Source: Cubamyces lactineus
Lineage: Eukaryota > Basidiomycota > Agaricomycetes > Polyporales > Polyporaceae
Length of the DNA stretch: 64,000 bases
NCBI GenBank assembly: GCA_022376465.1
Contig: JACDTU010000015.1
Span: forward strand, 930,001 to 994,000
Direction of reading: 5' to 3'
Positions 3,705 through 47,111 of this stretch are shown here, in pieces; within the stretch, counting starts at the first letter, position 1; the number at the start of each line of letters is the position of its first letter. The translations under genes and the position numbers were made by a program. Below the pieces are notes generated by a model. That model was not told the DNA's origin and did not search any database. It was given only the letters and a program-made list of their open reading frames with translations.

Positions 3705-4461
3705 TGTTACGCTCCGTGCTGCAACCCCAAAGTCCGAGCCCCAAACCCCCGTACTCCATCCTTACTCCGCATTACGTACTCTGTTCCCCCGTACTTGGCT
3801 CTTCCATACCCTGTACCCCCGACTCTGTTCTCTGTACTCCGCACTTTGTACTCCGTACTTCGGACTTCCCCCGACCCCATGACTTACATGTCTCAGATAA
3901 CCCCTTATGGTGCTACCTACATGAGGCTTTGCTTACTGAGCTATCTGCGATATCTTACCTCTTGGCAAGTTACTTCATACATTTGTTCTACTCCTTTCTA
4001 TCCCGTACATCTCTTATTGTTTCTATCGGGTTTCTGACTTAGTATAAATACTGCCCCGGAATGTAGTAGCTACTCAGTTTGGAAATCTTGTTACATCCCG
4101 TTATACCTCGTTAACTTGTCCTTCTCGTTTTACTGGACTTCTAGTCCGTAGTCCGATACTCAACCCCAATCCCCCCCCAGTCCAACCAACCTTTGTTCTC
4201 TTCCTACCCTTCCCTCCGACCCAACCCTGTTCCCAAGTTCGACCTCCGACCCAACCCTGTTCCCAAGTTTGACCTCCGACCCGTCAAGTCCGTAATCCAA
4301 AATCCGCAAATAGAGGACACCGAGTCGGAACCCGTGTGTTACTAATAGTTTCGTGAAAGTCCTCACACAGTGCTAGTCCGACCTCCGGTCGTACTCTGAC
4401 CCCGAACTCCGTCCAAGCCCTGACCACCGGAGTTGTACCCCCAGACGGCACGGTCCTAACA
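3705..4461 (+). mobile_element. Solo LTR of the Gypsy chromovirus family
   Basis: Begins TGTTACGCTCC and ends GGTCCTAACA, and matches the 3' LTR at 29020-29698 along its length. It is flanked by a perfect 5-bp duplication TATTG (3700-3704 and 4462-4466), which shows a complete insertion later reduced to one LTR. A TATA box (TATAAATA, 4043-4050) marks the LTR promoter. Near 4214-4275 a 30-bp unit (CTCCGACCCAACCCTGTTCC and ten more bases) is tandemly duplicated, which partly explains its greater length (757 against 679 bp). Confidence 0.95.
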
Positions 4462-5953
4462 TATTGCTCTATTACTAGTGACTGTAAGAGTAGACATACA
4501 GTGTAAACACATATGAATCCTTTGATAAGACTATACTCTTTATAGTATACAGTATATTGCCTTGTATAAGATCCACTTCGACCTTTTGACAAAAAGTTAA
4601 GATACAGTAGTATCTTGTGATTGATAAGACTACTGCCTGATTTATGGTTCACTGTAATGACTTTGTTTTGTTTATAGCATCTATAGCTACGAAACAGTTA
4701 TATCATATTGGCTATTATCACATAAGGAAAAAAGATATACAGCAATCTTCAACCATGAAGCTTCTATTAAAAGTCACATTGTTATGCCTGTAGAGCATTC
4801 ATAACTGTATACGGTATTCTGAGAGTAGCACCATAGAAATCTCCTCAATAAGAGCTCTTGAATGGTGTATGACACCAGATCAGCCACCAGAACCAAACAT
4901 GGTATAACAACTTGGCATGACAATGCTGCAAAGTAGGTTCATTGGATTAAATCAGCACTATATGCTCATGTAGTAGTCCTTGCACATGATGCCATTATGT
5001 CCCCAGAAAGAAGCACTATATGCTGACTGATTGATGTGAAACTGGTATTATGCCAGTTGTTCAAAGACTGCCTATTTGCTCTACTTATGAAATATATTCA
5101 TTTGATTCAGTAGAACTAGAGCTTTCAGAAGATACCACTTTGCAGCCTGTAGCCTTAGTAACAAAAAAGATATTGCAACTTGATTAGCTGCTAGGCTTCT
5201 GCTAAGATTGACCCAGCTCAAATCCGACTACTATGGTCACAGTGTGACCGGCATGTGAAATGAGCATCTCCCATTTCACAGGAGTATTTGTGCATCATAA
5301 GGTGTTGTTGTCGAGCGATCCTGTCCATATGTAGCAGATACTGTGTAGGCGTTCTGAGCATCTTTGCAACCTTCAATAGGGATGTAGATTTGCTACAGAT
5401 TGACCGTTGCGTATATTTGAGAAGGGGATCCAGTGTCATGTTATAAGCTCAGGAGTATATTTCCCCTGCCAAAATGTGGTGATTGTGACATCTGAAGATC
5501 ATGTGATATGGCCGGGTTTGAGCTGGGTCAATCTTATAGAAGATTGGATCCCGTATTTGTAGGCACTGCAGCCATTATAGAACTGAATATTGACCTTCAT
5601 TGATTGCACTATTGCATTCTCCTCGATCAGAGCTTTTGAATGATATATACACTTCCTAGATCAATAAGAAAATAAGTAAGATAAGAGTACACTAGTGCTT
5701 TCTTAATGCCCGGACTTTGCTCTTGTTTAATCATGTGACTATAATGGTTTTATGCCTGTAACTCTGTCAGTTTCTGTTCAAATGAGATGGTTGTGATATC
5801 AAATGGAAGCTATGATCCAGAGCTATGTGTACACATCCACACCATGTAGCATTGAGTAGCCAAAGCAGCCATAATATGGCAAATACCATGACAGGTCATG
5901 TGACTTGCTGTCCTGGAGCCTCCGGAGGTCCTCCGGAGGTGTAGGGCAGTTGC
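4462..5953. other. AT-rich spacer with no assignable gene
   Basis: Low-GC DNA with only short unconvincing open frames, such as 5218-5439 on the minus strand. Nothing conserved was recognised. The final GTTGC is the left target duplication of the next LTR. Confidence 0.5.
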
Positions 5954-8565: not shown

Positions 8566-8639
8566 ACTTAATAATATAGCTCTTGCCACCACTGTGCCCA
8601 TGAGACTGAGTCCTTCTCTGTCGTATCCTAGTGTTTGTG

Positions 8640-9018: not shown

Positions 9019-9066
9019 CATGTCACATGTTAGAAGGGTTCATGTCACATGTTAGAAGGGTTCATG
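9019..9066 (+). repeat. Two-copy 22-bp tandem repeat
   Basis: The unit CATGTCACATGTTAGAAGGG plus two bases occurs twice in a row (9019-9040, 9041-9062), followed by a partial third CATG. Confidence 0.9.
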
Positions 9067-10314: not shown

Positions 10315-11600
10315 AGATTACGTCACCCTAAGAAGACATGGAAGGCATCCTCTGTTGGGTCCCGCAGCACCCATATGATAGTATCATTGATAAAAAGGTC
10401 ATGTACAAACAAATCCATGTAACACTGGAGAACATTGAGTGTACAGCTATGACAACCCTGGATGGAAACATGGTTAGTCATGTGCCTCCGCAAGGGATCT
10501 GCAATGCTGTTGCTACCTACCAGATTGGTCAGCATATAGGCATCTTCACAAATGTGTATCTGGATGAAATAGTCATCTACTCAGATACTCTGGAGGATCA
10601 CACCAAGCACTGTAAGCTGGTGATTGATTGCTTGAAGGAATAGGAACTGTACCTTAGCAACATAAAGCTGCACTTCCTTTGTCCGATATGAAGATCCTTG
10701 GCAGGATTGTAGACAACGAGGGAATTTGCATGGTCCCTGACAACATTGACAAAGTTGCCAATTAGAAGGTACCTACCTGGCAGGCAATGTTGCCTCAATG
10801 TGGATCCCAATGGGCATACTGACAAACCTGACAGGTGGCAAGGTCAGCTTCAGATGGGGCCCCAACAGTGCACTAAAATTATCAACACCAGCCGCTTGAC
10901 TACTCCAAGACTGTGCCACAAACTTGCTTCATCACTGATGGCTCCGTGGCAGGCATTGCCAGGGTGGTATGCCAGGGCGAGGACTGGCTGCCTTCTTGGT
11001 GAAGGTGTCCTCAGCTCAGTTAAATTATCCTGTGCAATGAAATTGAGATTTAAGGTGGTGTTAAGGCAATGCTGTGGCACTGGGACATCCTGCTTATATG
11101 CCACTTCACCTGGATCACGGATCACAACGGATTGACAAAAGAATTTGTCAGGGTGACTAGCCTGTTGTGGCGAGAGGGTCTCTCGATTTGATTTTGAGGT
11201 TGAATATGTGCCCGGTGTTGAACATTTCTGGCAGATGCACTCTCACACATTTACCCCAACGATGACCTGGGACAGTATGTGCTGCATTAGCAATCCAGTA
11301 TGATGAAGGGGCAGACAGTTTACAGGCTGTCGTCAGTTGACACACCATGTTGGTGCTGCTCCTGACCAGGCATGAAGCTCTAGCAGTCTCTCCCGGAGGT
11401 CATCTAGTGACTCATTTTGCCACACCGGTGCAACTGCACTTCTTGTTGACATGGAGTGCAATAGCAGCCAGAGACAGACTCTCACTCACCACTCATCATT
11501 ATTGACCTCCTCACTAGGATGGTGCACCTTGTACCTAGTCTTACACACTGTGTTGACCAACAGGTTGCTGGGCTGGTGTTTGAGGAAGTGTACCAGTGAT
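10315..11600 (+). pseudogene. Ty3/Gypsy pol, decayed copy A
   Basis: Pol fragment in several frames. Reverse transcriptase is seen at 10338-10643 (TTLDGNMVSHV, QGICNAVATYQ, and the catalytic box as YLDEIVIYSD where YLDD is expected). The connection follows (KLHFLCP, then IVDNEGI). RNase H lies near 10900-11160 (FITDGSVAGIA, then TWITDHNGLTKEF). A tether segment follows near 11170-11250. Scraps of the integrase core appear near 11500-11580 (IIDLLTRMVHLVPS). Multiple stops and shifts make it non-functional. It lies head-to-tail with copy B and is clearly of the same family. Confidence 0.85.
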
Positions 11601-11949
11601 TGTGAGTGGTTGTAACTCATTATTCATGAGTACCTTCTGGTTGCACCTGAATTGGCTGCTTGGTGTTGAGCTCTGAATTTCAAGTGTGCATCATCCACAA
11701 TTAGACAGCTCCACCATGCAGGCTAATCACACTGTAACTCAGAGGCTGTGTCAGTGATCCAGTTTCTTAATATAGTGTGATTGGATACTATCAGCTAGGC
11801 ACCCTTATAGATAGTTGCCTCAGTCCTGGAGGAATGTGAATTGATGGTGGGGGGGTCCTATTGCAGCGGAGCCTTGAGGCGAGCTTTTTGCCTGATGGGT
11901 TTTCTCTTGCTTTGAGAATGAGGTCGCTTCGGCTTGTCGTGGTGCTAGT

Positions 11950-14560
11950 CTGCAATGGACCCTGTTATGATCTTCGTCTGAGCTCTGTCTGAGTGATAGG
12001 GGCGAGGACTCCGGATGCTTTATGGCCATGTGGGTCGAAAAGCGAGATGCTTACCTTCCTTCCAGATATTGGCAAATGACCAGCACCCGTAACACCTCTC
12101 CGATGCTGTTGCTGAAGAAACCGGGCACAGGCGTAAATGGTGTGGCACTGCGCTTGTGTGTAGTCTGCAAATTGCATGGGCGGAATGCCAACACATTGAA
12201 AGTCATGTTGCCCTTACCTGACATGGAAGAATCCTCCGTCGCCTTGCACTGAAACCCCACCGGAGCCTGATCAACGGTCAGGACGTCACAAGCAAATTTG
12301 TATTTCCCCAGAGCATGTTGAGCGCACAGCAATGATGATCCCTGATGGCAACATCGTTAGTTTGGTCTTGCAGCAGGGGGACTGTAATGCTGTGGCAACG
12401 TACCAGTCATTAATGAATCACATCTTCGGTCCATGCATTGGGAAGTTCATGGATATGCCTCGTGTTTGGCTTATGACTGACGGGTCAGTATCAGGCATTG
12501 CCGGCGTAGTGGCCCAAGGGGATGACTGGCATGTTGTGCGAGTTGCTGCATTCTTCTCAGCGAAGCTCACCTCCGCACAGTGCAATTATGCGGTCCATGA
12601 AATCGAAATGTTAGCTGGTGTAGGGTCTATGCTCGTACTGCTGGGCTGCCACTTTAATTATAGTCCATCGAGGCTTGATACATCTGACGTCACAGAGGAC
12701 ACTGTTGGGACGACAGGCTAGGTGGATTGAGAAGATCAGTGAGTTTGACTTGACCATTGAGTACGTACCCGGTGTGTAGAACATTCTTGCCAACACTATC
12801 TTGCGGATCTACTCTGCTGATACTCCGGGTACTGTACATGCAGCCTCCGAGTATGTGGCCCATGATGACAGTGAGCTCCTACCACAGTATTTGGGCCAAC
12901 TACAGCTTCCATATCGACTCCCGTACTTGCTGGCTCGGAGGCCTCTGCACTCATAGCCATGGAACTTCGCCCTCGGCAACACCCTATGCAGACCATGCCT
13001 CCCGCTACGACTGTCGTTGGAGCAGTTGCTAGACAACAGGGAAAACCAACATGAAATCGTCAGCCTGCCACTGGAGACAGTGCGCAGAGGGCTGAAACGA
13101 ACCCTCACTCAACTGAAGTGGTTCCCAAGCCTCTCGCAGCAGCTGAGAGTGGTCGCGCTGAGATGTCTCATGAGCTTGCCAAGCGGATTCGCCGAGTTGT
13201 ACTTCACAGACCACGCAGAACTGAAAACCACTACATTCACTGTGTGAAGATCAGTGGGACTCACAAGAACTTTCGGGCCTTGCCGGATGGCTTGATCTTC
13301 CTGCACGGATGTGGTTGGGATGTACTGTGTCTCCCGGACATACTGCACAGTGGGTGTAGCATCAGGGAGCTGATTATACACCATGCTCATACCCTGCTGG
13401 CTCACCTGGGCCCTTACAAGGTGTTGAGCCTGCTGCGCAACCATGTCTGGTGGAAGACAATCGCAGCAGACGTTGACCACTTCTGTGACACCTGTCAGAC
13501 CTGTAAGTGGACTAAGCTGAATAATCAGCGGCCTTACGGTGAGCTACATACACTCACTGTACCAACAACTTCATGGGAGGTTATTAGTATTGACTTTGTC
13601 GGCCCGCTCCCTGAGTCAAAGGACCGTAATGGTAGTTTTGATTCCATCACGGTCATCATTGACCACTTGACTGGAATGGTACATCTTGTATGGTGTCGGA
13701 CCACCTAATCCGCAAAGCAGGTCACTGAACTTGTGTTTGTAGAGGTCTACCGGCTGCAATGAGTGACTGTGACTCGCTGTTTCACATTTTGGACTCACCT
13801 ACATCGTCTTGTGGGCGTTGAACTACGCATGTCGAGTGCGTACCACCCGGAAATGGATGATGCCACTAAACATGTGAACTGCACGGTGACCCAGATGCTT
13901 AGGCAGTGCGTCAGTAATACTCAGACAGACTGGCCTAGTAAATTACCTGCAATCAAGTTTGCGATTAATCTCGCCTGTTCGGATACCACAGGTTACGCTC
14001 CTTTTTTCTCAACACGGGCCGGATGCCTCAGCCAATGCTGTCTGCGGATTAATTTCCTAGTGTTCGTGTATACATGCAACAAGTAAAGCAGGCTATTTGG
14101 CCGCACACAACAGCATACTTGCAGCCCGTGTGAAGCAGACCGGCGATGCTTATCGGAAGTGGTGCCCGGCTCCATTCGTAGAGGGGGACTTGGTATACAT
14201 TTCGACCATGATTATTTCATTGCTGAAGGGGCTCGTGTGCAAGCTGGCACCTAAGTACATTGGTCCATATCATATTACAAAGAATTTCAGTCATTATTCT
14301 TAACAGGTAACAGGTTGACTTACTGCACAATCTGCGCCAGCACAGCATTCATGATGTCCATGCATCATTACTGCATGCACACCAGCCGAGCAATGACCAA
14401 CTTGAGCACCAGTAGTGGACTTTGGGGAGCGCTCGGATGAGTGGGTGATCGAGCGGGTGCTCGCACACCAAGGCTGAGGTGAGGAGACCTTGTGTGAGGT
14501 GCTGTGGCGTTCTGGGGATTGTACCTGGGTTCCATATTCAGACATCGGCCATGTTCATGC
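11950..14560 (+). pseudogene. Ty3/Gypsy pol, decayed copy B
   Basis: The second, longer relic of the copy A family. RT begins at 12022-12250 (LPSRYWQMTSTRN, PLPDMEESS) and continues at 12332 (TTPDGNIVS..., LQQGDCNAVATYQ). It then jumps near 12450 directly into RNase H (MTDGSVSGIAGVVAQGDDW), so the YLDD box has been deleted. The tether follows (IEKISEFDLTIEYVPGVEN). At 13118-13708 lies the integrase with its zinc-binding region (HHAHTLLAHLG ... CDTCQTCK) and core start (DFVGPLPES). The core ends at 13763-13990 with SAYHPEM..ATKHVN, where the catalytic Glu position is Lys. A chromodomain-like tail (EVLWRSGDCTWVPY) lies at 14490-14545. Many stops and frame shifts are present. Confidence 0.87.
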
Positions 14561-14884
14561 GATGGGTGAGCATTTAGAAGCTCTAGGAGTTGAGAATATC
14601 AGTCAGCTTCCGCACAGCTCAGGACAACCTCCAAAGGATAATAACCCTCAAATATTTCTTGGAAATTTGAGGCCTGTGCGTGCAGGACGGGCACAAGGGC
14701 AGTTGAAAGGTAAACCATCTCCATGTTCCATCTCGCTGTGCAAAAGCTCTCACCCTCCTTTGTGGCCGCAACAACTTGTTCATCATTCCTTGCTTACTCT
14801 CACTCCTTCTGTCTGGCATCCACACCTCATTCACCATCTCTTCCTTAATCTCTCCCTCTTCTCCTACACACTCTCCTACTCATC

Positions 14885-15415
14885 ATGGTCTTTGTGTGCC
14901 ATTCCTTCCTTGAGCGCCTGCCCAACAGTCACCTGGTCCTACACTCTGCAACCTCAGGATGCTGCATCCAGTACACCCCTGAGCAGGTACACCTCTACTC
15001 GTGCTTTGACTGCGCCATTCACCTGGGCAGGCTGGAAGGCACCGGACACCTGACCCCTGCTGGCTACACCAAGTTCCATGACCTCTGGACACAGGACAAC
15101 AACTCCCCTACCAGTTCTCTTGGTATGACGCTCAGTCAGGCGTGTCCACCGCTGTTGGTGCTGCTATTAACGTTAATGACCTCGCGCCCCTGCCCCTGCG
15201 CATTGTGGTGCATCAATCTCATGCCACAAGCTCATCCCCCATCTGGTGACCCGCAGTACAATTCCCGCAAGCAGTCCATTGTTGACGATCTCATTTTGAA
15301 CCAACTTGACCATTCATGCAAGGCTCAGGCAGCTAGCTGCGCTTGTCAGGAGGTGAAGTGCTCCCGCGCTGCTGCCACTAAAGAGGACGACTTCGGTGCA
15401 CCTGCATGCCCTTAG
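14885..15415 (+). pseudogene. Unassigned transposon-associated ORF after pol
   Basis: Lies 0.3 kb downstream of Gypsy copy B on the same strand. The frame reads HLYSCFDCAIHLGRLEG, TGHLTPAGYTKFHDLWTQ and then loses sense at a C-run near 15110. One frame over it resumes as YQFSWYDAQSGVST ... INVNDLAPLPLRIVVHQSH, ending about 15250. This looks like one protein broken by a single-base deletion. I do not recognise a function. By position it is a third ORF after pol or the gag-like gene of another copy. Confidence 0.45.
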
Positions 15416-15454
15416 AAGAAGAAACCTGCTGTTGAATGTACCTCAGCTGCTGCC

Positions 15455-15763
15455 TTGAAGACAGGCTCAGTTCCAATGGATGTTGATCGCGACGTGGCTA
15501 GCGCAGTTGCGGGACAGGCTGCAGGAGGCGACGTGGGGTCAGGATTACAGGAAAACCTTGTTGATGAAGAAGACGTGCTGGTGGAGTTTCACACCAATGA
15601 TGACACCCCGGTCACCACGCCTTCAAAGGCCAAAAAGGCAAGATGGCAAAGGGCAAGGGCAAGGCCACCTAGTCTTGTGCATGGAACTGTGTCGCGCTTG
15701 TCACCATGGGAGGGCAAATTTAACGGTTGGTGCTGCAGGCACCGCATGCAGCCTTTTACATGA
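15455..15763 (+). other. Acidic/basic low-complexity ORF, uncertain
   Basis: A 102-residue open frame with an acidic stretch (DEEDVLVEF) followed by a basic one (KAKKARWQRARAR). No domain was recognised. It follows the unassigned ORF on the same strand and could be its continuation after a lost frame. It could equally be chance. Confidence 0.25.
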
Positions 15764-16414
15764 TCTTTCCTTTCTGGATTTTCTCTTGCTCTGTTTTTCA
15801 CTTGTGCTTCATAATCATTGTAAAACTCCCTGGCGCAGTTTTACTCTTCTCAATAGTACCTAAGTTTGCTCTCGCTTGTATTGTACAGTATTGTTCTTGT
15901 CTTGCAGTGAACAGACTGTACACCTGTCTATCAGCACCTGAATGCTCTTGTGTGCCACCTCCTTCCTTTCCGGTCACCAGTGTCACAACACCATCATACT
16001 CACACTGATCCTTACCATGGCATGCAATGAGCATGCATTCCTTACTCAATGTCCTGGCCTCAGATTTGTCATACTTGGCAGAAGAGAGCCATGTCTGGCA
16101 GGTACAATTGATAAGGTATAAAACATTGGATTGTGTATTTTACTGCAAAGTGTGAGACCGTGCGCAGAAAATGACACAATCTAACAACTGGTCTAAATGG
16201 GCACTGTTATCTCAGCATAGTCATTCAGATCTATATAAGCAGTTCCTGAAGCCATCACATGCCACTCCAGCATGGAACATGACACAAAGTGAGAGTCATC
16301 AGATTGCAGCATACTGCACTTATTATGCATCTTTGCTTAGAATCAATCTCTCAGAAGTGTGCATCTGTTCTGGAGACGAGACAGATATGTGCTCATTTAT
16401 GCTTCATTACTCTA
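15764..16414. other. Spacer with no assignable gene
   Basis: Repeat-like DNA between the plus-strand Gypsy relics and the minus-strand DDE fragment. Short open frames without motifs. Confidence 0.4.
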
Positions 16415-17010
16415 TTACAAACCATGATTACTATACTGTCTTGGGGAAGTACAGGGACTGGCAGCTACCATCCCTGCCATTCTCTCCCAGAAGCAGCACT
16501 TCAATGCCAAATAGTGGACTCCCATACCGGGTCGGGCCCATGGACATGAGGTGAGAGGAAAGAGATGTGTAGGTGCGTTGTTGAACACAAAGGCATGGTC
16601 CTCATCAGGATAGTGCTGCTTGAGGATATCCATTGCAGTGGTCGTGTGCTGTAGAATTTCCTCATGTGTGAAATAGCCATCCCAGTTCATCCCTGCCAGG
16701 AAGAGGACACAGGCTGATGATTGTTTTCCATCCAGCGAGCAAAGCCAATCATACTCTGCAGAAATAAAGTCGGCAACCATCAAGGATGCACCCTCACCCT
16801 TGGTCTGTGGAACTGCCTTTCCCATCTTGTGGACCCAATGTTGCATACACTGATTGTGAGCGTAGAAGGTAGACTGATCATGCCACCAGTATACAACCCG
16901 CCTCTGTGGCACCCCACTACTACCTACAGGGTCAGATCCAGGTTCGGAGACCTCTTCACCATCTTTGTCCCACTGACATGTGTGCATCAGTGACATCTTT
17001 GTACTTGATG
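16415..17010 (-). pseudogene. Agaricomycete DDE transposase, catalytic part
   Basis: The 213-codon frame carries the catalytic region of the DDE family whose N-terminal half is at 7352-8080. Signature segments are WDKDGEEV, RRVVYWWHDQSTFYAH, KGEGASLMVADF, DGYFTHEEIL and MDILKQHYPDEDHAFVFNNAPTH. In the family the second catalytic residue is Asp in VFDNATTH; here it is Asn (VFNNAPTH), which predicts loss of activity. The reading frame opens in unrelated upstream DNA (17011-17056). Upstream of about 17010 the sequence is Copia reverse transcriptase, so this is a chimera. Confidence 0.8.
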
Positions 17011-17019
17011 AAGATGGAG

Positions 17020-17345
17020 TGGTCAGTGTTGCTGTAAATAAATCCACAGGCTTCAAACTTGGCTGGGAGTAGTCGACACCTTCAACCTGGGCGCAACAAG
17101 TCAGGCTTTCTACCGCTCAATGGAGTCATTGGCGCCTCGCTTGATGTGAAACACCCACTTGCAGCCGACAACCTTGCAGTTTTGAGACACTCATGTTGAT
17201 CCTAGAGCTCAGCCTTTGCAAAGGCAAGCAGCTCCTCTGTGTACGCAGCCTTCCACATGTCCGCATCAGGTCATAACATGACCTCCTCGTATGTCTGAGG
17301 ATTGTCACAGAGAGTTGCTGCATAGTTTGCATGCATTTGTGGAAT
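17020..17345 (-). pseudogene. Ty1/Copia reverse transcriptase, N-terminal part
   Basis: Read with a few stops it gives NPQTYEEVM, PDADMWKAAYTEELLAFAKAEL, CFTS-EAP ..., FEACGFIYSNTDHSIFI. These match the start of Copia RT (the NPKTYEEAM / WKxAYxxEL / WVFxxKRGxxG / GVDYxQ series) up to the SDHSIFI strand just before the YVDD box. It breaks off there into the DDE transposase. Upstream (17345) it is joined directly to a Gypsy integrase fragment. Confidence 0.7.
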
Positions 17346-18965
17346 TGGTAAGCTATGTAACAGACCCGAAGGGAGCTGATTGCTTGCCTTTACTACTGGC
17401 AAGTCCCACAAGATTTGCAGAACTTGTCTATGTCCTTATGTAGGCTTGGCCACCAGAACTAACGTCGGATGTAGTCTGATGTACATTGAGGTCCCAAGTG
17501 GCCAAGTGTGCTATGTGCACGGTTGATCATTAGCTCAGCGAGCATTCATGTCTTCAATGGTAGGTGAGGTACACATAGTACTTCGCTACCACTGTGGTTC
17601 TTGGTGTACAGTATAGCAGGCCTTCACGGAAAGTGAAGGCCTTGTGCTGGGACGGGTCCCCGATGATCCTTCTGGAATGTTGTGTTGGCTGTGTATCCTT
17701 TACGCAGGGCATTGAGGAACCCGTCCTGAGATTCTATTTGAATCTTCGATGATAGTAACTCGCTTATTGTCAGGTCGTCGCTCAATGGGGTGTTCTCGCT
17801 CACTTGTTGTGGGCGAGCTACAGACAGATATTGAGCTTCTTGTACTCAATCTTCTACAACTTCGGGCAGCTTAGCCTGAGTTGTCTTAGAAGCGATTTGC
17901 CACTCAGCCAGTCGAGCGGACCATCGTAATATACGACTAGCCTTAAGCTCAATCATCCGAGAGAACGAAAGGAAATCCCCTTCTGGCTCAAGACATACAT
18001 TGGCATTGACATGGTCCCATTCGTTAACTACTTCGTCATAGTTATTATTCCCGTAATAGCGCAACAAACAGTCCGCTACTTTGTTCAATTTACCCATAAT
18101 GTACATGATATTGTACTGGAAATGAGCCAGAAACTTGTACCACTGGATCTGACAACTGTTGGGACAAGGTAGCCCCTGCAGAAATTCCAATGCCTTGTGA
18201 TCGGTAACCACATGGCCAAATCGTCCCAGAAGCTTATCTTCCCACTCCATCAATCCTTCAAGGATTGCTAGAGCTTCTTGCTCGTAAGTGGGTATGCTCG
18301 CTGCGCACTTGTGAACTTCTTGGATGGATAGAAATCCAGCGGGACAACAAATTTGCCAATCAGGCCCTTGACCATACAGTCCATACACTGATGCCTCACA
18401 AATGAGCCAAATAGGCTAATTCTTGTTGGGATTGATCAGCTTGAGGATTGGGACCTTACAAGCAAGTGCTTTGATTGCTCCAAAACACTTGACGTGCAAA
18501 GCATGCCAGATGAATGGCCTGTTGTTCCGTATCATGCCCGATCATGGTGTGGTATACACTGTCACATCTGGCATAAAATGCGCTAGATAGTTGACCAAAC
18601 CCAAAAAGCAATGCACTTCCTGGTAGGTACACGGAGTCTGCCAGTTGCGGATCTGGCTCATCTTGTCCATACCAGTGTGACACCCTTGGTCATCTATTTG
18701 ATAGCCAAGGCAATCCAAGTTTTGTTGAAAATAACTTGCATATCTTGCAACTTAAGTACAACCATGCTTTGTGGAGCTTCTCAAAGACTATTTTGATGGT
18801 CATCAGGTGTTGGAACATCGATGGGGTGTTTGTATCTCCCTGCTGCATGACCTTGCTCACAAATGCACCACAAGGAGTGGCAAACACTGTTTTCCACATG
18901 TCCTCAGCTACTAGCATATTTGCTCATACACATTGGACAAGTTGATCTTCGAGCAATACTTAGCT
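17346..18965 (-). pseudogene. Ty3/Gypsy RT - RNase H - integrase N-terminus
   Basis: Minus-strand pol fragment of a Gypsy family different from copies A and B. RT starts near 18965 (SKINLSNVYEQI, VWKTVFATP equivalents, VMQQGDTNTPS) and runs through the connection (LGLVNYLAHFMPDVT). RNase H lies at 17846-18388 (VYGLYGQGPDW, YEQEALAILEGLMEWEDKLLG, VTDHKALEFLQG). The integrase zinc-binding start is at 17350-17520 (LGHLG, FWWPSLHKDIDKFCKSCGTCQ). The YMDD region is missing and stops interrupt it. It is truncated on both sides and fused to Copia pieces. Confidence 0.82.
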
Positions 18966-18979
18966 CAAGCAATGTCCAT

Positions 18980-20700
18980 TCAGATCAGGTCCTGGTCTGG
19001 AAACAGTGTGAGGTTGTGTACCATAGTGTTTTTATGCTGCCTTGCATTGACAACAGTACATGAGACGGACAGTGGCAGAGGGGACATAAAGTGCATGGTC
19101 CAAGATGAGATGCTTGCCGTGGCTGACAGACAGACAGATAGTACCGACACCAGTGGTGTAGATAATGCTGCCATTATCACCTTGAATGCGGCAAGGAGGG
19201 ATGGGCTGCAAGGTAGAGAAGTCGGACTGGTGAGGTGACAGGTGCGTAGAGGCACGTAGAGGCACCTGAGTTGAAAAGGAAAGGGTCGGACACAGCCTCA
19301 GTTGCAGCAAAGATGTAGTCAGCATCCCAGTTCAGTGAGACACGCAGAGGCGCAGCGAGGCAAAGGGGGGGGGGTCTCAGCAGCAGATGGCACAGCAACA
19401 AAAGCCTTATGGAGAGCGTCATTGTGGGAGTCCAAGGAAGCTAGCCAGCCAGGGAGAACACCAGAGGGGTCAATGAATTCGGAGGACAGCTTAGAAGGTG
19501 TTGTTGGAAGGAGGACGGCAGAATGTGCTGTTCCGGACAGCAGAGCGGACAACCCGGGAGCAGGAGTGGCAGACTCCGCAATGTGGTAGATGTGATCCTG
19601 CGCATCGTAGATAGCCTTGGTGGGCTGCAACACCGGCTTGGGGCAATTGGCGTGAGGAGCAGCACAGCGAGTGGCAATGTGAGCTTCGACTTCAGTGTGT
19701 GTGCCTTCCATTTGACCACCGGGTTGGTAACAGTCAGCAGCGGTGTGACCCTTACATTTGCAATGGCTGCAGAAAACGAGGACACGTTGACCAGAGCTGA
19801 ACTGCGAGGACATGGCAACATTGGTGGTCAGACCCGTAGCGGACGATGTGGGAGGCTTCTCTTCTTTGCGAAAACATCTTCAAGCTTGAGACATTTGACA
19901 ATGTGAGTGACAATGTATGGGGTGGAAACAGTGGTGTTCGCAAGACCATCAGCAATGAAGTGTTGAAGATGGGGAAGAGTGTTGCGCATCATGTGGAGAA
20001 GGGCGACCTTGGAAAGTGAGTTGGCTTCGAGATGACCCATGCCGGTGACCTGGACGACACAGCCGGATGGTGTCGTGAGTCTGCGGGACAAGAGACTGGG
20101 AGACGTCAAAGTAACGGTGGAAAACATCATGAAAAAGGACTTGTGCATGAGGGCTGCGGTTGACATGGTGATTGCAAAGAAAGAAACACAAGGTAGCGGC
20201 GGAAGGCAAAGTGTCAAGAGAGCTGTCAGAGAGATGTTCCAGCTTGTCCTCAGAGCACTGCAAGTGAATAAAGGACCAAACATGGCAACCATTGGTCTCC
20301 CAAGTCTGGGTGTTGGCAACACGAGTTGAGTGAGACAGACAAACATAGTCAGGTTCGAGGTAGCAGGCAAGATTGCCAGCAATGGAAAGAATATCTAGGA
20401 CCTGATGATGCCAGTGACAATAGTTGCCCTGAGTGAGGTTCAGAAGATCAAACTTAGAGAACTTAACTAGGAGATTGGAAGGGATTATATAGTGAATAAT
20501 GGGTCAGGGTCAGGGGCAGGTACCACGGTTGGGACATGCTGACAGGCAGCAGAAAACATTGCAAGCAGGGGAGGTGAATTAGGTAAGAGAGTTGCTGGAT
20601 CGGGATCAGCGAGAGTGATGTTATGTGCTGAAGCCGAGGACCTGATTGTGGATTTAAGCGTGTCCGCCATGGCAGCCTTGTGCAGGGATTGCTTTGTCAT
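18980..20700 (-). pseudogene. Ty1/Copia gag and protease start, copy 1
   Basis: The gag start is likely the ATG at 20698-20700 (MTKQSLHKAAMADTL). A gag body follows in shifting frames (19949-20263 and neighbours). A CCHC zinc knuckle is at about 19750 (CSHCKCKGHTAADC). The aspartic protease region is at 19032-19420 (Asp-Ser-Gly-Ala-Ser-Thr equivalent, then LSPHQSDF, GSIIYTTGVGTICL, LDHALYVPSATVRL). It ends near 18980, where Gypsy RT begins. Frame shifts and stops are common. The LTR upstream (20914-21098) fits as its 5' LTR. Confidence 0.8.
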
Positions 20701-23350: not shown

Positions 23351-23966
23351 CCCAGTGAGTATTTCAGTTTGAGTCTTACTGTTATAGATCAGCATTGAGA
23401 ATGAGCGCTGTGGGAAAAGTCATCAAGAACGTGGAAGGAACAGTCACAATATGAATGGATGGTGTGCCCACAGAAGAAATGGCAGCAGAGGTAGAAGCGG
23501 CGACAGTGAAGGTAGTCCTAGAACAAGCCAAGGAGTCTCAAGAGCCTCAGTGAGAGCATCAGGCTTGGTGTTAGCACCGACCATGACTGGATGTGCGAAA
23601 AAAAGAGACATGGATGTGTGAAGACATAGAAACTGCAGAGGACCAAGAGAGAAATGAGAGAAAAGGCCCAGGAACGTGGGGCAAGGGTCTAACTGAGGCA
23701 ACGGTGTCATAAGTGGGGTCAGTCTACGGTTCTTTGCTTGGTGGGGCTGATGGGTGCATGTAACACACTCAAAAGCAGAAGTATGTATGTCGAAAGCACA
23801 AAGGGTCGCACCTCACAGAAGTGTTGAAAGACCTTCTTACTGACTACCGACAAACTACCCATGGACTACCTTACTCAAAGAAACAATCAAGGATCTTTGA
23901 CTGAGGGCGGTGATGCTAACGATTCTATGAAGATCAAATGAAAGAAATGAGGGGTGACACAGAATA
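23351..23966. other. Unassigned repeat DNA left of the Tc1 element
   Basis: Contains an 88-codon minus-strand frame (23444-23710) that may be Copia-derived but shows no secure motif. A short plus-strand frame begins at 23401 and stops after about 17 codons. The TA at 23965-23966 is the left insertion site of the Tc1 element. Confidence 0.4.
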
Positions 23967-25585
23967 CAGTGACTTACAAAACTATTGCCGTGTTTCGCAC
24001 TTTTTGAATGGGAAGGCTGTATCTCCACCATTTCTGACTCAATGACCATGATTCAACTACCAATAGAAAGGTGTGCATCCTGGCTTTCCCACGGCATATC
24101 AATCACGTGACTTGGAGCTCTGGAAGCGGAGATATTCCCTACTCTTTGGAGCAAGTGCATGACAATAGTTTTGTTGCTGGCCCTGCTTCAGCAACAAATG
24201 TCCCCTTAGAGTGGCCATTATCACATGACTAATAGAGGAGTATCATGTGACATCATCCTAGTTGATCTCCCATCAAAATCTGCCAGCTCATCACTTGAAT
24301 CTCTACCACCACCACCATGCGACCTCTCTCTCAGCAAACTGTGAATGATATTCTCTCTCTGCTCGACCAAGGCCTTTCCTTGAGTCAAATCTCTACCCAA
24401 ACTGGTGTCCACACCTCTACAATCAGCAAGATTCGTTCCAAACTCCGTTTCTACCTTCCAAAGTCCAAGGGAGGCCGTCCATCCAAGCTTTCTTCCACCA
24501 CCATCAACTATGTGTAGCGCCTTATCTGCTCTGGAGAAGCTGATACAGCTGTGGATGTTCAAAAAAAAATTGGAGAATGTCTGCACAAAGCCAGTCTCCA
24601 CTCAAATGGTGTATCGCCATCTCAAGAAGCATGGAATGAAGGCCGTTGTGAAGTGCAAACGCCCGCTTCTTCTGAAGCGTCACATCCATGCACGGCTGGA
24701 CTTTGCTTTGGCCCACCAGGACTGGACTCTGGAGGACTGGAAGAGGGTTATCTGGTCAGATGAGACCAAGATCAATCGTCTGGGGTCAGATGGGAGGAAG
24801 TGGGTGTGGAAGAAGACTGGGGAGGGCCTCAGTTCACGGCTGGTGGAGGGCACAATAAAGTATGGTGGTGGAAGTTTGGTGCTCTGGGGCTGTTTTGGGT
24901 GGGAGGGGCCTGGATATGCGATGAAGATTGAGGGCAAGATGGACACCAACCTCTATGTCAGCATCCTGGAGGATGCACTGCAGGATAGCCTTGAGTATTG
25001 GGGCCAAACTCCCGATGACATTGTCTTCCAGCAGGACAACAATCCCAAGCACACCAGCAAGAAGGCCAAAACCTGGTTCAAAGACCATGGTTTTGAGGTT
25101 ATGGAGTGGCCAGCCCAATCTCCTGACCTCAACCCTATCGAGCACCTCTGGGGTATCCTCAAATGCAAGCTGGCCAGCCACGAGGAGCCACCGGTATCAA
25201 TTGATGAGTTGTGGAAGAGGGTAGAGGCAGAGTGGGAGGAGATTTCAGTCAAGGAGTGCAGGGACTTGATTGAGAGCATGCCTAGGAGGGTTGCAGCTGT
25301 GTTGAAGGCCAAGGGGGGGTACACCAAGTATTAGACTGCCTGAAATGTATGGATCTTGGTCATGATTTGGGCCAGTAACAAAACTATTGCCATGCACTTG
25401 CTCCAAAGAGCAGGGAATATCTCCGCTTCCAGAGCTCCAAGTCACGTGATTGACATGCCGTGGGAAAGCCAGGATGCACACCTTTCTATTGGTAGTTGAA
25501 TCATGGTCATTGAGTCAGAAATGGTGGAGATACAGCCTTCCCATTCAAAAAGTGCGAAACATGGCAATAGTTTTGTAAGTCAATG
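23967..25585 (+). mobile_element. Tc1/mariner element, full length
   Basis: A 1619-bp element between two TA dinucleotides (23965-23966 and 25586-25587). It has long terminal inverted arms of about 216 bp (roughly 23967-24182 and 25368-25585). The ends read CAGTGACTTAC at the left and, as the reverse complement, CATTGACTTAC at the right. Each arm is bounded by inverted copies of a 17-base motif (near 23976, 24158, 25378 and 25560). The transposase gene between the arms is broken, so mobility would need another source of transposase. Confidence 0.93.
24317..25334 (+). pseudogene. Tc1-family DD34E transposase, stop plus frameshift
   Basis: The N-terminal helix-turn-helix is at 24317-24517 (RPLSQQTVNDILSLLDQG ... 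HTSTISKIRSKL). It is cut by a TAG at 24515-24517. The same frame then runs to a run of nine A at about 24558-24566, after which the catalytic domain continues in another frame to 25334. Catalytic residues Asp (WSDETK), Asp (QQDNNPKH) and Glu (NPIEHLW) are intact with the DD34E spacing. The catalytic frame is open but starts out of frame, so the copy is non-autonomous unless the stop is read through and the A-run is slipped. Confidence 0.9.
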
Positions 25586-26782
25586 TATGCCTGGCCCAGA
25601 CTCCGACTCTTCGTCTGGGACTACTGTAAGTCCTGTACTACCTGTGCGCGAGCTAAAGTTCCTCGGCATCTCCCCTACAGTACTTTGAAGCAACTCCCGA
25701 TCCCCATCTCCATGGACCTCATCGAGCAACTCCCGAACTCTGCCGGCTACACCGTGATCCTGGTGGTAGTTGACAGGCTCACTAAGCAAGGTATATTCAT
25801 CCCTACCCACGACATGCTTACAGCCTTGGAGCTAGCAGACTTGTTTGTACTCCATGTGTTCTCCAAGCACGGAGTTCCCTCGCATGTTACCTCCGACCAG
25901 GGCTCGGAGTTCGTCTTGCACTTCTTCCACTCCCTCGGTAAGGCCCTTGACATGCGCCTTCACCTCACCTCCGGTTACCACCCGGAAGGCGACGGTCAAA
26001 CCAAGCGGGTTAACCAGACCCTCGAGCAGTACCTCCGGATCTACTCGAACTACCAGCAGGACAACTGGTCCCAACTCCTTCCCTTGGCGAAGTTCGCGTA
26101 CAACAATGCCCCGTCCGCAACTACCGGCATATCCCCGTCCTTTGTGAACAAAGGCTACAACCCCGCCATCTCCATCTACCCCAAGCGGGACCTCACCTCC
26201 GCTCGAGCTCGCGACTATGCCGTTGACCTCGACAAACTCCACACCCAACTCCAACAGCAGATCTCCGAAGCCCAGGCCCGATACCAAGTACAGGCAGACA
26301 GGCACCGTCTACTGGCACTGGACTTCAAGGTCGGAGATCAGGTCTATGTCCGAGCTCAGCACATCCGGACCACACGTCCCTCCAAAAAGTTGTCCAAGAA
26401 GTTCCTAGGTCCATTCACTATCATTGCGCAGGTTGGAACTCACTCCTTCACTCTCCGACTACTGGACTCTATGTGCGTGGTACACCCAGTTTTCCATGTC
26501 TCGCAACTCGAGCCTGCAACTCCGAACACCATCCCCGGCTGCGTCCAAACTCCGCCACCTCCGATCCTGGTGGACAGAGAACCGGAGTACGAGATTTCGG
26601 AGATCCTTGACTCCAAGATTGACCGCCAGCATCGGAGTTGCCAACTCCTGTACCTAGTCTGATGGGCAGGCTACGAAGGTACAAACGAAGAAACTTCGTG
26701 GATCCTCGCCATGGAGCTCGGACATGCCCAGGAGTTAGTCTCAGACTCCTACTCGGCCTACCCCGACAAACCGGACCTCTAG
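25586..26782 (+). pseudogene. Chromovirus integrase with chromodomain
   Basis: Starts inside the integrase zinc-binding domain (WDYCKSCTTCARAK gives the CxxC pair). The core follows, with Asp in MDLIEQLP, Asp in TSDQGSEFV and the helix GQTKRVNQTLEQYL. The family has Glu at the Lys position of GQTKRVN, so the third catalytic residue is lost. The GPY/F-like module is visible (KFLGPFTIIAQVG, VHPVFHVSQLEPA). A chromodomain follows (PEYEISEILDSK ... WAGYEGTNEETSW), interrupted by an in-frame TGA at 26660-26662. The frame then stays open to the stop at 26780-26782. The stop removes most of the chromodomain, which in chromoviruses directs insertion to marked chromatin. Confidence 0.9.
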
Positions 26783-26902: not shown

Positions 26903-28811
26903 CTACTCCGCCATGTCTATGTCCGCTGGTTCCTCCGGCCCCTTTTCCCCCTCCACGCCCTCATCCTGCTCCTCCTCCTCACCGGACTTGCCCTGCACAG
27001 ACTTGTCCGCCAACCCCGTCCCATCTTCCTCCTCCTCCTGTTACACTTTCGAGCGTGACTCTTAAACTATCAAGCCTTAAGACATCAATGAATAGAGAGC
27101 TTGTTTCTATTCAATTACTAGCCCTAGCTTTTCGAAGATAAGCACGTAGTAACTTGTTCAGTTGAAAGTGAGTTAACAAGCAGTCCGAGTTCGTAATTCG
27201 CAAAGAGACTGAAAGCTGAGGGTCGCTCTGTGGCGTCGCCTCTTATATACATGTACAGAGACCAAAGAGAGGAATGTTCTAGCGTATTCAAGGACTTTCT
27301 GGTACGTTGTAGTCAGTGCTAGTTGAACCTAGTACCACAGTGGCAGTGCTGCTGTGCACTGCAGGCGGCTGTGCAGAAGCGACTGTGCACCCCTATATGG
27401 TAAGTATAGAGTAAGTGCTAGAAAGTCCTAGCTGAGACAAGAACGTTCCTGTCCTAAAGAACCGTAGCTACAATCCTAGAGCTCGCCATATCTGTATCGT
27501 ACAGAGAACGTAGCACAAGTCCATGACTAATCGTAAAGTTCGTAAACAGCCTATCGTACATTCGTAACACCTCCCAGTCTGACCCCGCCGCCTGCTCCAG
27601 CGCGTCCACAATCGCATCCTCCCTGTCCTGCAACGTGAACTCCCGCAACACCCACCCAAACTCCGATGCGAGTTCAGACTTGACCACGTCGCGCACGGCC
27701 TCGCCAATGGCGGACTTCAGCTCCTTCCGCACAATCTTGGTGATGGCGTTGCCAAGACCCTGGACCTCCTCCCGCATCATCTCCTCCTGCTGCTCCTCCT
27801 CGTCGACTAGCAGGTTGATGACCCGCCCCGAGGTGCGCCGGTTGCGCTGCATCGCAACAAGCAGGTGCTCGAGGAGCTCGCGGTCAGAGAGCTTCTCCGG
27901 GTCGTCGGACCACCGGAGGTCGGACTTCCCAACCTCTGGAAGTCCGGAGCTGGCGGACGCCCTCAGGCCCGTCGATGAGCCCACGATGCTTGGACCCCGG
28001 GCTACGACCGTCTGTGCTGGTGGGTTAACTCCGGGTGGTGCGACGAAAGCCCACCGGATCTCACCTGGTTGGAGCGGCTTCTCCGCTGCCTTCTTCTTCT
28101 CCTTCTCCTTCCCCTTGCCCTTGTCCGCCCGCACCTTCTCTGAACTCCGTACTCCGGTGGGGGTGGGGGTCTCAAACCCGTCATCGTCAACGACGATGGC
28201 GGCGGACTTGACCTTCTTGCACTGAGGGCTCGGGGCCTCCTCCTTGCACGCAATCTGGGCTTGGATGTCCGCAGGCAACCCGCGAGCCCCGACGCACGCG
28301 TGCGACCGGGCCTTCTGGCATTGGACGCAACTTGACGTCTGTTTGCCCACACGGAACCGGCACGTGATCTGTTTCGCCGCGCACCGGTCGCACTTTGCCC
28401 TGTAAACTCCGCGTTAGCCCGTACTCCATACTCCGTCCTCTAGACGGACTTACCGTGGAACTAGCAACTCCATGTTGTTCTCCTCTTCTTCCTCCGACTC
28501 TGGCTCCTCGTCCTCCGCGGGACGCTTGCTCCCCCACGCGGACGTCCCGGCCTTCTCCAGGGCAGCCTGGCGGAACAGCGCCGCTGCCTTCTGCGCGGCC
28601 TCGTACTCCGCGCGCTCCTTCTCCTCCCGCGCTCGCTCTTCCTCTGCTTTCCGCGCCCTGCAAACCACCATTAGTCCGAACCCCATACCCCGAACTCCGA
28701 CAGCTCCGGTACTTGCGCCTTGGCTGCTGCGGCCTCCTCTGCTGCTGCCTTCATCCGGAGCTGCGTAAGGTGCGCCTCCAGAGCCTGGATGTTGTCGAGG
28801 GTGCTGGACAT
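26903..28811 (-). pseudogene. Antisense zinc-cluster-like gene inside chromovirus
   Basis: Encoded against the sense of the retroelement, between integrase and 3' LTR. Exon 1 (28811-28713) gives a short Ala/Glu-rich helix. Exon 2 (28657-28454) is a coiled-coil-like EERAREEKERAEYEA region with an acidic end. Exon 3 begins at 28399 with C-x2-C-x6-C-x10-C-x2-C-x7-C, which fits the fungal Zn2Cys6 spacing. A long linker and a helical segment follow. Intron 2 (28400-28453) has GT/AG ends and joins the frames. Intron 1 (28658-28712) also has GT/AG ends but leaves the frames one step apart, so this copy may carry a frameshift there. The last exon is split by a solo LTR (27039-27569). On the far side the same frame continues as an acidic tail to a TAG at 26903-26905. 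Function unknown; DNA binding is only suggested by the cysteine pattern. Confidence 0.65.
27039..27569 (+). mobile_element. Solo LTR nested in the antisense gene
   Basis: A 531-bp segment beginning TGTTACACTTTCG and ending ATTCGTAACA, flanked by a perfect 5-bp duplication CCTCC (27034-27038 and 27570-27574). It has a TATA-like CTTATATACATG near 27242-27253. It is not related to the chromovirus LTR but shares core layout with the solo LTR at 5954-6422. Subtracting it and one CCTCC copy makes the antisense gene's reading frame continuous, which independently confirms the boundaries. Confidence 0.9.
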
Positions 28812-28873: not shown

Positions 28874-28881
28874 CTTATATA
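28874..28881 (-). promoter_or_regulatory. TATA box of the antisense gene
   Basis: TATATAAG on the minus strand, 63 bases upstream of the proposed ATG (28809-28811). It lies in the chromovirus between the antisense gene and the polypurine tract, so it is not part of an LTR. Confidence 0.5.
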
Positions 28882-29019: not shown

Positions 29020-29698
29020 TGTTACGCTCCATGCTGCAACCCCAAAGTCCGAGCCCCGAACCCCTGTACTCCGTTCTTTCGTACTCTGCTCTTCTGTACT
29101 CCGAACCTCCGACTCTGATCTCCGTACTCTGCACTTCGTACTCCGTACTTCGGACTTCCCCCGACCCCATGACTTACATGTCTCAGATAACCCCTCATGG
29201 CGCTACCTACATGAGGCTTTGCTTACTGAGCTATCTGCGATATCTTACCTCTTGGCAAGTTACTTCGTATATTTGTTCTACTCCTTCCTATCCCATACAT
29301 CTCTTATTGTTTCTATCGGGTTCGTGACTTAGTATAAATACTGCCCCGGAATGTAGTAGCTACTCAGTTCGGAAATCTCGTTAAGCTTGTAACCTTGTCT
29401 TACCGGACTTCCAGTCTGTAGTCCAACACTCAACCCCGACCCCCAAGTCCGACCAACCTTCGTTCCCTTCCTACCCTCCCCTCCGACCCGACCCTGTTCC
29501 CAAGTCCGACCCCCGACCTGTTAAGCCCGTACTCCGTAGTCTGCAAATAGAGGACACCGAGTCAGAACCCGTGCGTTACTAATAGTTTCGTGAAAGTCCT
29601 CACACAGTGCTAGTCCGACCTCCAGTCGTACTCTGACCCCAAACTCCGTCCAAGTCCCGACCACCGGAGTTGCACCTCCGGACAGCATGGTCCTAACA
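29020..29698 (+). mobile_element. 3' LTR of the Gypsy chromovirus
   Basis: Follows the polypurine tract (29007-29016) and starts TGTTACGCTCC. It ends GGTCCTAACA and matches the solo LTR at 3705-4461. A TATA box TATAAATA lies at 29333-29340. The hexamer ACTCCG recurs at least five times. Confidence 0.93.
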
Positions 29699-45191: not shown

Positions 45192-47111
45192 ATGTACTTA
45201 ATCGACACGAAGACGTTCTTGCTCCATCCATTCAACGAAGGCAGCGTCCCTCCCTATGCGATCCTCTCCCATGTCTGGAACGGCAACGAACAGAAGCCCC
45301 CACAGTCGCGGTTCGTAAAGGGCCAGGACAGAGGGAAGCGTGGTGGGCCGATTTCTCGCGTCATAGACCGTGCGCGGCACACGCCGTCCCCCAAGCTCAG
45401 GGGTGCTTGCAAGAAAGCGAGGGAGGATGGTTTCAAGTGGTTGTGGACCGACACCGACTGTATCGACACATCCAATAGCGCCGAGCTAAGCGAGGCGATC
45501 AATTCGATGTTTGTCTGGTACCGCGATGCAGTGATGTGCTATGCGTACCTGCACGACGTTCCTCCGAATGAGGACCCGCATCCTCCTCAATCGTCTTTTC
45601 GGCGTAGCCGATGGTTCAGGCGCACTTGGACACTCCAAGAGCTCATCGCGCCCGCTTCTATCATTTTTCTCTCCTCCGACTGGCAACCTATCGGTGCTAA
45701 GCGCAGCCTCGCGGAACTCATCGAATCCATCACCGGGATCGACCGCCTTGTCCTCACGCACCGGAGGCCACTGGAGGACGTCAGCATCGCGTGCCGGATG
45801 TCGTGGGCGGCTTCGCGGGAGGCCAGACGCGAGGAGGACCGCGCCTATTCCCTCATGGGCATCTTCGGTGTCCACTTGTCGACCATCTATGGCGAGGGCA
45901 ATCACGCCTTCGTCCGTCTCCAGGAGGAGATCCTCAAGCACACCTCTGACCAGAGCATCTTTGCCTGGGGCTCCAGCCTTCGCGAGTATCAGTCTGGTGC
46001 ATTCGTAACGATAGCTAAGGGGCACAACTACGAGCAGCACAAGGATTCTCAGCCCCTCCTTGCATCCTCCCCTGCCGACTTTGCATCGTGCGCAGACATT
46101 AGCTCCATCCTGCTGTCGGAATTTGCGGAGAAGATCAACCTGCCGGAGAATGTCCCAATCTATACCCACACCGGTGCTGGTATACGCACCGCGCTCCCGA
46201 TGGTGCCTCTATCCCCTGGACAGGAGCTCGGCGCATGTGATGCCATGCTTGGTTTGCTGGGCTGCATCGATACCCGCGGACGCCTCCTCGCGCTCTTCTT
46301 ACGTCCTGACCCTGTTGTTTCCAACAAGGCTCTTGTCGGCGGGTTCGTCGCTCAGGGCGGTCGGCACAACCACTACTACCGTACCACTCGTCTGACCGAG
46401 GCGGATATGCGCGAGCTGTTCAATCCTTCCCCGGCGTTGAGAGACATCATCATCCAATCCTTTCGCCACGTCTCCGCACGAGAGCGATCCTCTTCCTCCA
46501 CCGCCAGCCCCTCCATCGCTTCTCGAAACTCCCTGATCTTCTTCGAAGCGCCTTGCAGCGTGCATATCTCCAAGGCGTCGCAGAAAGCATTGGAACGCAT
46601 GGGCTTTAGGATGCCTGTCATACCAGACCTAGGTTTCCGACTGACCGGTCCGGGAGAGGCCCGCAGTTTGACTTTCATCGGCTTCCATCACGAGTCCTTC
46701 ACGGTCCACTTTGGAGCATGCCACGTAGACAACCGAGGGGGGCGCGGCCAGCTCTGGGCGACGGTCTCATTCGACGCTGACCTGGACTCGGTATTCGCCC
46801 GCGCTACCTTCGAGGAGGACTCGGAGTGCAGCGACGAATCCGAGGACATTTATCCAGATGAGTCCATGCTCGTGCAGTTCTGGCATGACCAACGGCAGAC
46901 GTTCTGTAGCGCGTATCGCCAGGTCAGACTGATGTTCAGCTACTCTGCTCCGTCGGACGTCGTAACGGAGAGGGGGTTGGCCGAGGTGTACGAGATGGAA
47001 ATCAGGCTCCGGGAATACGATTATGGCGGAGGCGGACGCCGCTCGAGCGGGAGCGCAGGCTCCAAACGCGTTTCCATCGGTGGGAACGCTTCGATGACTG
47101 CGAGTCGTTGA
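45192..47111 (+). CDS. HET-domain (heterokaryon incompatibility) protein 1
   Basis: A single-exon gene of 639 residues. The N-terminal HET domain spans about residues 20-260: YAILSHVW, ACKKAREDGFKWLWTDTDCI, AELSEAINSMFVWYRDA, FRRSRWFRRTWTLQELIAP, SWAASREARREEDRAYSLMG and YGEGNHAFVRLQEEILK, then DQSIFAWG. HET domains trigger cell death when incompatible fungal cells fuse; many members have other or unknown roles. The usual W-x-D-T-C-C-I-D motif here reads WTDTDCID. The C-terminal 370 residues are a family-specific region without a known repeat. It belongs to the same subfamily as the genes at 55542 and 63479. Confidence 0.88.
   Translation: MYLIDTKTFLLHPFNEGSVPPYAILSHVWNGNEQKPPQSRFVKGQDRGKRGGPISRVIDRARHTPSPKLRGACKKAREDGFKWLWTDTDCIDTSNSAELSEAINSMFVWYRDAVMCYAYLHDVPPNEDPHPPQSSFRRSRWFRRTWTLQELIAPASIIFLSSDWQPIGAKRSLAELIESITGIDRLVLTHRRPLEDVSIACRMSWAASREARREEDRAYSLMGIFGVHLSTIYGEGNHAFVRLQEEILKHTSDQSIFAWGSSLREYQSGAFVTIAKGHNYEQHKDSQPLLASSPADFASCADISSILLSEFAEKINLPENVPIYTHTGAGIRTALPMVPLSPGQELGACDAMLGLLGCIDTRGRLLALFLRPDPVVSNKALVGGFVAQGGRHNHYYRTTRLTEADMRELFNPSPALRDIIIQSFRHVSARERSSSSTASPSIASRNSLIFFEAPCSVHISKASQKALERMGFRMPVIPDLGFRLTGPGEARSLTFIGFHHESFTVHFGACHVDNRGGRGQLWATVSFDADLDSVFARATFEEDSECSDESEDIYPDESMLVQFWHDQRQTFCSAYRQVRLMFSYSAPSDVVTERGLAEVYEMEIRLREYDYGGGGRRSSGSAGSKRVSIGGNASMTASR

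Follow-up and report, generated by a model that had tools for sequence, protein, structure and literature searches.

A selectively maintained antisense gene for a Zn2Cys6-like protein in a motif-saturated Ty3/Gypsy chromovirus of Cubamyces lactineus

Organization of the locus

The stretch of DNA analysed here (the window) comprises 64,000 nucleotides of contig JACDTU010000015.1 (positions 930,001 to 994,000) of Cubamyces lactineus, a wood-decay fungus. It contains a 5'-truncated copy of a Ty3/Gypsy chromovirus that carries an additional gene on the minus strand, between the integrase and the 3' LTR (28811-26903). An earlier reading made from the letters alone (the sequence-only reading) had placed such a gene here, with a six-cysteine cluster, GT/AG introns and its own TATA box. 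The features are as follows, in window coordinates.

3705..4465 (+): solo LTR of the family bearing the antisense gene, matching the full-length copy L016 at about 91.5% in two aligned pieces
23964..25588 (+): Tc1/mariner-like element with 220-nt inverted ends and a DDE_3 transposase, located where the copy is truncated on its left side
25586..26782 (+): what is left of pol (its 3' part), with the integrase core and an SH3_Tf2-1 domain; a stop codon (26660-26662) precedes the chromodomain region
26903..28811 (-): antisense accessory gene of three exons, inactive in this copy; ATG at 28811, stop at 26905-26903
28874..28881 (-): TATA box of the antisense gene, TATATAAG, 63 nt above the ATG
28717..28811 (-): exon 1
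28658..28716 (-): intron 1, GCAAGT..CAG in this copy, rich in CGGASTW-like heptamers
28454..28657 (-): exon 2, encoding a charged helix-like and an acidic stretch
28400..28453 (-): intron 2, GTAAGT..CAG
28399-26903 (-): exon 3
28294..28392 (-): six-cysteine cluster CDRCAAKQITCRFRVGKQTSSCVQCQKARSHAC, with the spacing C-x2-C-x6-C-x10-C-x2-C-x7-C
27039..27569 (no strand assigned): foreign solo LTR of 531 bp inside exon 3, TGTTACA..GTAACA, with the target site duplication CCTCC (5 bp)
29020..29698 (+): 3' LTR, with CGGAST at 29046, 29068, 29098, 29140, 29151, 29404, 29446, 29503, 29531, 29612, 29643 and 29665

The position of the gene, its cysteine spacing (28392-28294) and the TATA box 63 bases upstream of the ATG (28881-28874) are all as first described. 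The description of the introns is correct for intron 2 (GT-AG), but intron 1 is GC-AG in the window copy; the 19 other copies that could be modelled all have GTAAGT..CAG there. ATATAAG is also found at the TATA position in the other copies compared (the slice taken for copy L027 starts inside it). Because the foreign solo LTR interrupts exon 3, the antisense frame of the window copy reads into foreign DNA. Both this copy and its antisense gene are dead, because exon 3 is broken, the donor of intron 1 is GC, a stop interrupts pol and the left part of the element is truncated.

The full element L016 is 8318 bp in length with an identical pair of 694-bp LTRs. It encodes the domains Retrotrans_gag, RVP_2, RVT_1, RT_RNaseH, H2C2, rve, SH3_Tf2-1 and Chromo (27.5 bits; cut-off 25.1). 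With its gag-protease-RT-RNaseH-integrase order, C-terminal chromodomain and LTRs, the family is a Ty3/Gypsy chromovirus.

Elsewhere in the window, an older remnant of an LTR from this family lies at 1498-1865 (-; about 80% in two pieces). Positions 2131-2967 (-), near 2400-2700, match by eye the Tc1/mariner-like transposase (24384-25334) in reverse complement and represent a second copy of it. Two ORFs with HET (heterokaryon incompatibility) domains are found near nested transposons (45192-47111, +, and 55542-57941, +); a HET protein encoded by a host gene of the window has 85% identity to one from Cubamyces menziesii. A host gene with a phospholipid-translocating ATPase N-terminal domain (62396-63175, -) is located near the right end.

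Copies of the element and selection on the antisense frame

The genome searched comprises 36.3 Mb in 43 contigs. DNA searches identified at least 79 matching pieces, a number that includes the window and a single hit on the inserted LTR, and 20 other copies were taken for gene modelling. The three-exon model fits 19 of these (L024 failed the pattern), with an exon 1 of 95 nt (103 in L027), an intron 1 of 52-61 nt, an exon 2 of 201-237 nt and an intron 2 of 53 nt. An uninterrupted protein of 426-440 amino acids is encoded by 13 of the 20, at least two of which (L016 and L017) lie between two LTRs of identical sequence, and the model is broken in six (L020, L021, L022, L026, L027 and L028). In a protein search of the genome, 37 matches span from residue 99 or earlier to the last residue and 26 of the 37 have no internal stop; this search reads through introns, so some of the stops in these matches are intronic. 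One locus (G000:C4:813692-822581) is an inverted duplication of old copies (L033), in which antisense-gene matches of equal score are mirrored (813692-814168, -, and 822105-822581, +; 816098-816856, -, and 819417-820175, +).

The sequence-only reading had proposed conservation of the frame in other copies as its own test. The frame is intact in 13 of 20 copies and its dN/dS (Nei-Gojobori method) indicates strong purifying selection. Between intact subfamilies, the antisense gene has a dN/dS of 0.07-0.12 at a dS of 0.16-0.25; the value is 0.11 for the near-identical pair L016/L023 (four changes only) and 0.17-0.22 between intact copies and the dead window copy. For comparison, pol gives 0.08-0.16 in five diverged copies (L009, L012, L013, L026 and L028) and, outside that comparison, 0.15 in L020, 0.29 in L010, 0.59 in L019 (eight changes) and 0.26 in L024, which has stops. 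When the six frames of exon 3 are compared, the antisense frame is the lowest (0.07-0.09) and the mirror sense frame gives 0.15-0.18, while the remaining four exceed 1 in the three divergent comparisons. Exon lengths among uninterrupted copies differ by multiples of three (exon 2: 201, 204, 219 and 237 nt), whereas intron lengths do not. Because of the low dN/dS and these differences in threes, the antisense protein can be regarded as selected. The gene is thus selectively maintained and intron-bearing, and lies opposite gag-pol with its own TATA box.

A chance ORF is ruled out by the dN/dS of the antisense frame: the gene is present in multiple copies with intact models, has the lowest dN/dS of six frames and has relatives in other species. 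A sense-strand ORF of 500 amino acids covering this DNA was rejected as the selected frame on its higher dN/dS (0.15-0.18, against 0.07-0.09), and the relatives, start codon and cysteine cluster are all in the antisense frame. When L016 is compared with L009/L012, the antisense gene has diverged by 0.22-0.25 at synonymous sites and gag and pol by 0.066-0.082, a gap which may reflect either mosaic subfamilies produced by recombination or a faster module.

The antisense protein

The antisense protein contains predicted long helices, the six-cysteine cluster and a basic stretch resembling a nuclear signal. Zn2Cys6 domains have the spacing C-x2-C-x6-C-x5-12-C-x2-C-x6-9-C, which is found in both L016 and the window copy; 8 of 14 homologues have the pattern. 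The named proteins among these 14 matches are all from Trametes or Cubamyces, and because none of them carries a C. lactineus label, the gene seems to be unannotated in this species. A Pfam search with the full protein gave no Zn_clus match for L016 and no fungal trans domain, and the Zn_clus scores of relatives P0010 (17.3 bits) and P0003 (11.5 bits) are below the cut-off of 21. As none of these proteins reaches the cut-off, the protein is labelled Zn2Cys6-like rather than a member of the family.

Searches with predicted models of the L016 cluster and of relative P0002 listed few PDB chains, all Zn2Cys6 proteins with weak scores. When the alignment of the whole protein was searched against PDB sequences, it returned two weak matches, neither of them a zinc-cluster protein by name, and an IMG/VR scan gave nine pattern matches, none related to the antisense protein. 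The helix-forming, coiled-coil N-terminus described from the sequence has its counterpart in a long predicted helix in P0002. Prediction thus supports a diverged protein of Zn2Cys6 type in which both ends form long helices, probably coiled coils, and which carries a putative nuclear signal. It resembles the Zn2Cys6 (Gal4-type) domains of Gal4, Leu3, Ppr1 and Pho7 in its cysteine spacing, nearby helices and candidate CGG target and, by weakly scored prediction, possibly in its fold, which in Zn2Cys6 domains consists of two Cys-helix halves arranged about a pair of zinc ions. Pfam, however, reports no fungal trans domain and misses the L016 cluster. CGG triplets are typically recognised in pairs by Zn2Cys6 proteins, and the Pho7 site has a single CGG (PMC5559640). 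The suggestion that the protein is possibly DNA-binding is supported by the weakly scored predicted structures, which agree in direction, and by the CGG motif filling the element (discussed below).

A CGG-containing motif across the element

The most enriched hexamer of L016 is ACTCCG/CGGAGT, with 70 occurrences (9.1 expected from first-order and 20.7 from second-order composition). Of 116 CGGAST sites, 99 are followed by A or T and one by G; the position after that is C or G in 104, and the flanks are about flat, giving the consensus CGGASTWS. CGGASTW occurs 31 + 68 times on the two strands (99) in 7624 bp of L016, versus 6.7 expected and a maximum of 15 in 100 shuffles, and enrichment is similar in copies L017, L014 and L012. 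The density of CGGAST is fairly even, at about four per 250 bp, and CGGASTW(S) saturates the element along its entire length. In four control Gypsy families (L029-L032) the heptamer is near or below expectation (2 vs 3.5, 5 vs 3.4, 3 vs 4.0 and 2 vs 1.7), and the stretches fetched contain no antisense six-cysteine ORF of at least 110 amino acids. Window positions 1-19000 contain 14 sites versus 3.2 expected, 11 of which lie in the same-family solo LTR (3705-4465), and positions 30000-64000 are below chance (8 vs 15.8).

The motif is also dense in coding DNA. Compared with synonymous-codon shuffling, ACTCCG occurs 39 times in pol (9.6 +/- 2.7 expected; maximum 17 in 300), nine times in gag (4.2; maximum 8) and seven times in the antisense coding sequence (2.1; maximum 6). 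The enrichment in pol involves all three frames and both strands, and four control pol ORFs have 1, 2, 4 and 2 occurrences against 1.6, 1.9, 3.2 and 0.8 expected. When the 58 CGGAST sites in pol are placed on alignments with four other Gypsy Pol proteins, 40/45, 48/54, 41/43 and 50/54 of the sites within aligned parts lie in columns without gaps, and most of these sites can thus be attributed to substitution. Across the genome, a tandem form of the motif has 201 occurrences and its backward reading has six. Fourfold sites are variable at 11 of 106 positions inside motifs versus 139 of 889 elsewhere (odds ratio 0.56, z -1.74), which is at most suggestive; nine control patterns give odds ratios of 0.77-3.27 with no z beyond 1.6 either way. 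Conservation per copy has the same tendency, the motif being kept at 72/75 sites in L009 (265/299 for other CGGNNN) and at 31/64 in the decayed L024 (119/273), copies that are not independent.

Genome-wide codon-pair bias was rejected as the cause of the motif, as the four control families have no enrichment, and so was a signal on one RNA strand alone, as both strands are enriched. The pol of L031 (G000:C39:1224500-1231000) has an excess of AGACGG/CCGTCT (14 vs 4.7 expected), with 14 on one strand and 0 on the other in the fetched stretch. This excess, confined to a single strand in a family with no antisense six-cysteine ORF there, was not equated with the CGGASTW enrichment.

Proposed model and alternatives

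The best explanation, which is judged narrowly probable, is that the element-encoded zinc-cluster protein binds CGGASTW, oligomerises via its helices and coats the DNA of its family. In this model the antisense protein would recognise the motif in its own element and, by oligomerising, would cover the family's DNA. We infer binding of the motif by the protein, self-recognition and an effect on silencing or transcription. The protein could regulate the element or the host, as the sequence-only reading suggested, and the concentration of the motif in the element favours the element. In L016, the U3 sites are at LTR positions 61-163 and the gag-pol TATA is at 340; the antisense TATA is at element position 7480 and the 3' LTR begins at 7625. 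The U3 cluster, 0.18-0.28 kb above the gag-pol TATA, may serve in gag-pol control, and the same cluster in the 3' LTR, 0.2-0.3 kb above the antisense TATA, may control the antisense gene too; given this geometry, one cluster could serve both promoters. The protein may therefore act as an LTR regulator. Alternatively, it may have a chromatin role over the whole element, with anti-silencing like that of VANC for VANDAL, and the spread of the motif over coding DNA favours such a role over promoter activation alone. The antisense introns would survive retrotransposition because, from their orientation, they are not introns in the sense genomic RNA.

It is possible, although unlikely, that the gene is a true accessory gene (for nuclear import, assembly or other help) and that some other protein reads the motif, either a zinc-cluster factor of the host or the element's integrase or Gag. 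The host has Zn_clus matches of its own (25 among the matches listed), and nuclear roles have been suggested in the literature for other antisense accessory genes. However, gene and motif co-occur in this family, four other Gypsy families are near chance and lack the six-cysteine antisense ORF in the stretches fetched, and CGG is a typical Zn2Cys6 target. Repression of the element by its own motif-binding protein, as a form of copy-number control, is improbable; since it has the binding step in common with the best explanation, the probabilities of the two overlap. The same anatomy fits, and the U3 cluster would be the operator. Sites for self-repression would be easily lost, yet the motif has accumulated element-wide, and copies with identical LTRs (L016 and L017) point to recent amplification.

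That nothing reads the motif, which would have spread by slippage or mutation bias as a degenerate 7-bp tandem repeat, is quite doubtful. Tandem 7-bp copies do occur in the introns, LTR and flanks, and VANC target motifs likewise grew by tandem repetition, but the motif exceeds synonymous shuffles in all frames and on both strands of pol, where its mostly ungapped sites indicate origin by substitution, and other families in the genome have no excess. A role for the antisense transcript rather than the protein (antisense or dsRNA control), as proposed for plant antisense accessory genes, is very improbable and as a sole role largely refuted, since the dN/dS of 0.07-0.12 and exon differences in threes show that the protein is selected, although the transcript could matter in addition. 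Capture of a host transcription factor acting mainly on host genes is disfavoured to the same degree: Zn2Cys6 proteins are a family of host transcription factors in fungi, but the motif is under chance in window positions 30000-64000, and the protein has 132 similar genome pieces, as expected of a repeat family.

Comparison with known systems

The class of antisense accessory genes is already known; the zinc-cluster domain and the self-motif seem to be new. The VANDAL elements of Arabidopsis are DNA transposons, and the antisense protein HBZ of HTLV-1 is of bZIP type, unlike the zinc-cluster protein described here. Among LTR retrotransposons, searches of the open-licence literature found none with a zinc-cluster gene in antisense and none with a self-motif along its whole length. 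The gene brtn of Boty, an LTR retrotransposon of Botrytis, is also an extra antisense gene between pol and the 3' LTR, but is set apart by its description (Zhao et al. 2011, as cited in PMC7264820 and PMC8365987), which in those accounts mentions no zinc cluster, introns or self-motif. The plant antisense ORFs (aORFs) Grande gene23, RIRE2, Retand TRP28 and PvRetro13 share the place, orientation and presence in most copies; gene23 is driven by a promoter of its own and its product is nuclear, and TRP28 is predicted to be DNA-binding. By description their domains are different, and these accounts report no element-wide target motif for them; both state that the function of antisense accessory genes in LTR retrotransposons is an open question (PMC7264820, PMC11963269). 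HBZ, named in one of these (PMC11963269), is similarly a nuclear regulatory protein that a retroelement encodes in antisense. A ParB-like gene opposite the transposase strand is mentioned for a DNA transposon of an alga (PMC12477816).

VANC offers a parallel in logic: in both systems an element-encoded gene goes with a short motif that has built up within its own family, partly in tandem. According to the VANC accounts cited, the proteins differ, the VANC21 motif is found in non-coding parts whereas coding DNA is filled here, and binding by VANC has been shown whereas that by the antisense protein is putative (PMC5735166, PMC10398659). A tentative proposal is that the antisense zinc-cluster protein reads the 8-bp CGGASTWS, such that every copy of the family would carry a mark of self and escape silencing by the host; such a sequence-specific anti-silencing system would have evolved in a retrotransposon independently of plant VANC.

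In this family, an antisense accessory gene has a candidate domain for DNA binding, and a candidate target for that domain is at hand. If the model is correct, self-marking of transposons by a motif and its own reader would be a recurrent strategy, and this family would have the unusual trait that synonymous sites of gag and pol have been reshaped by a self-motif.
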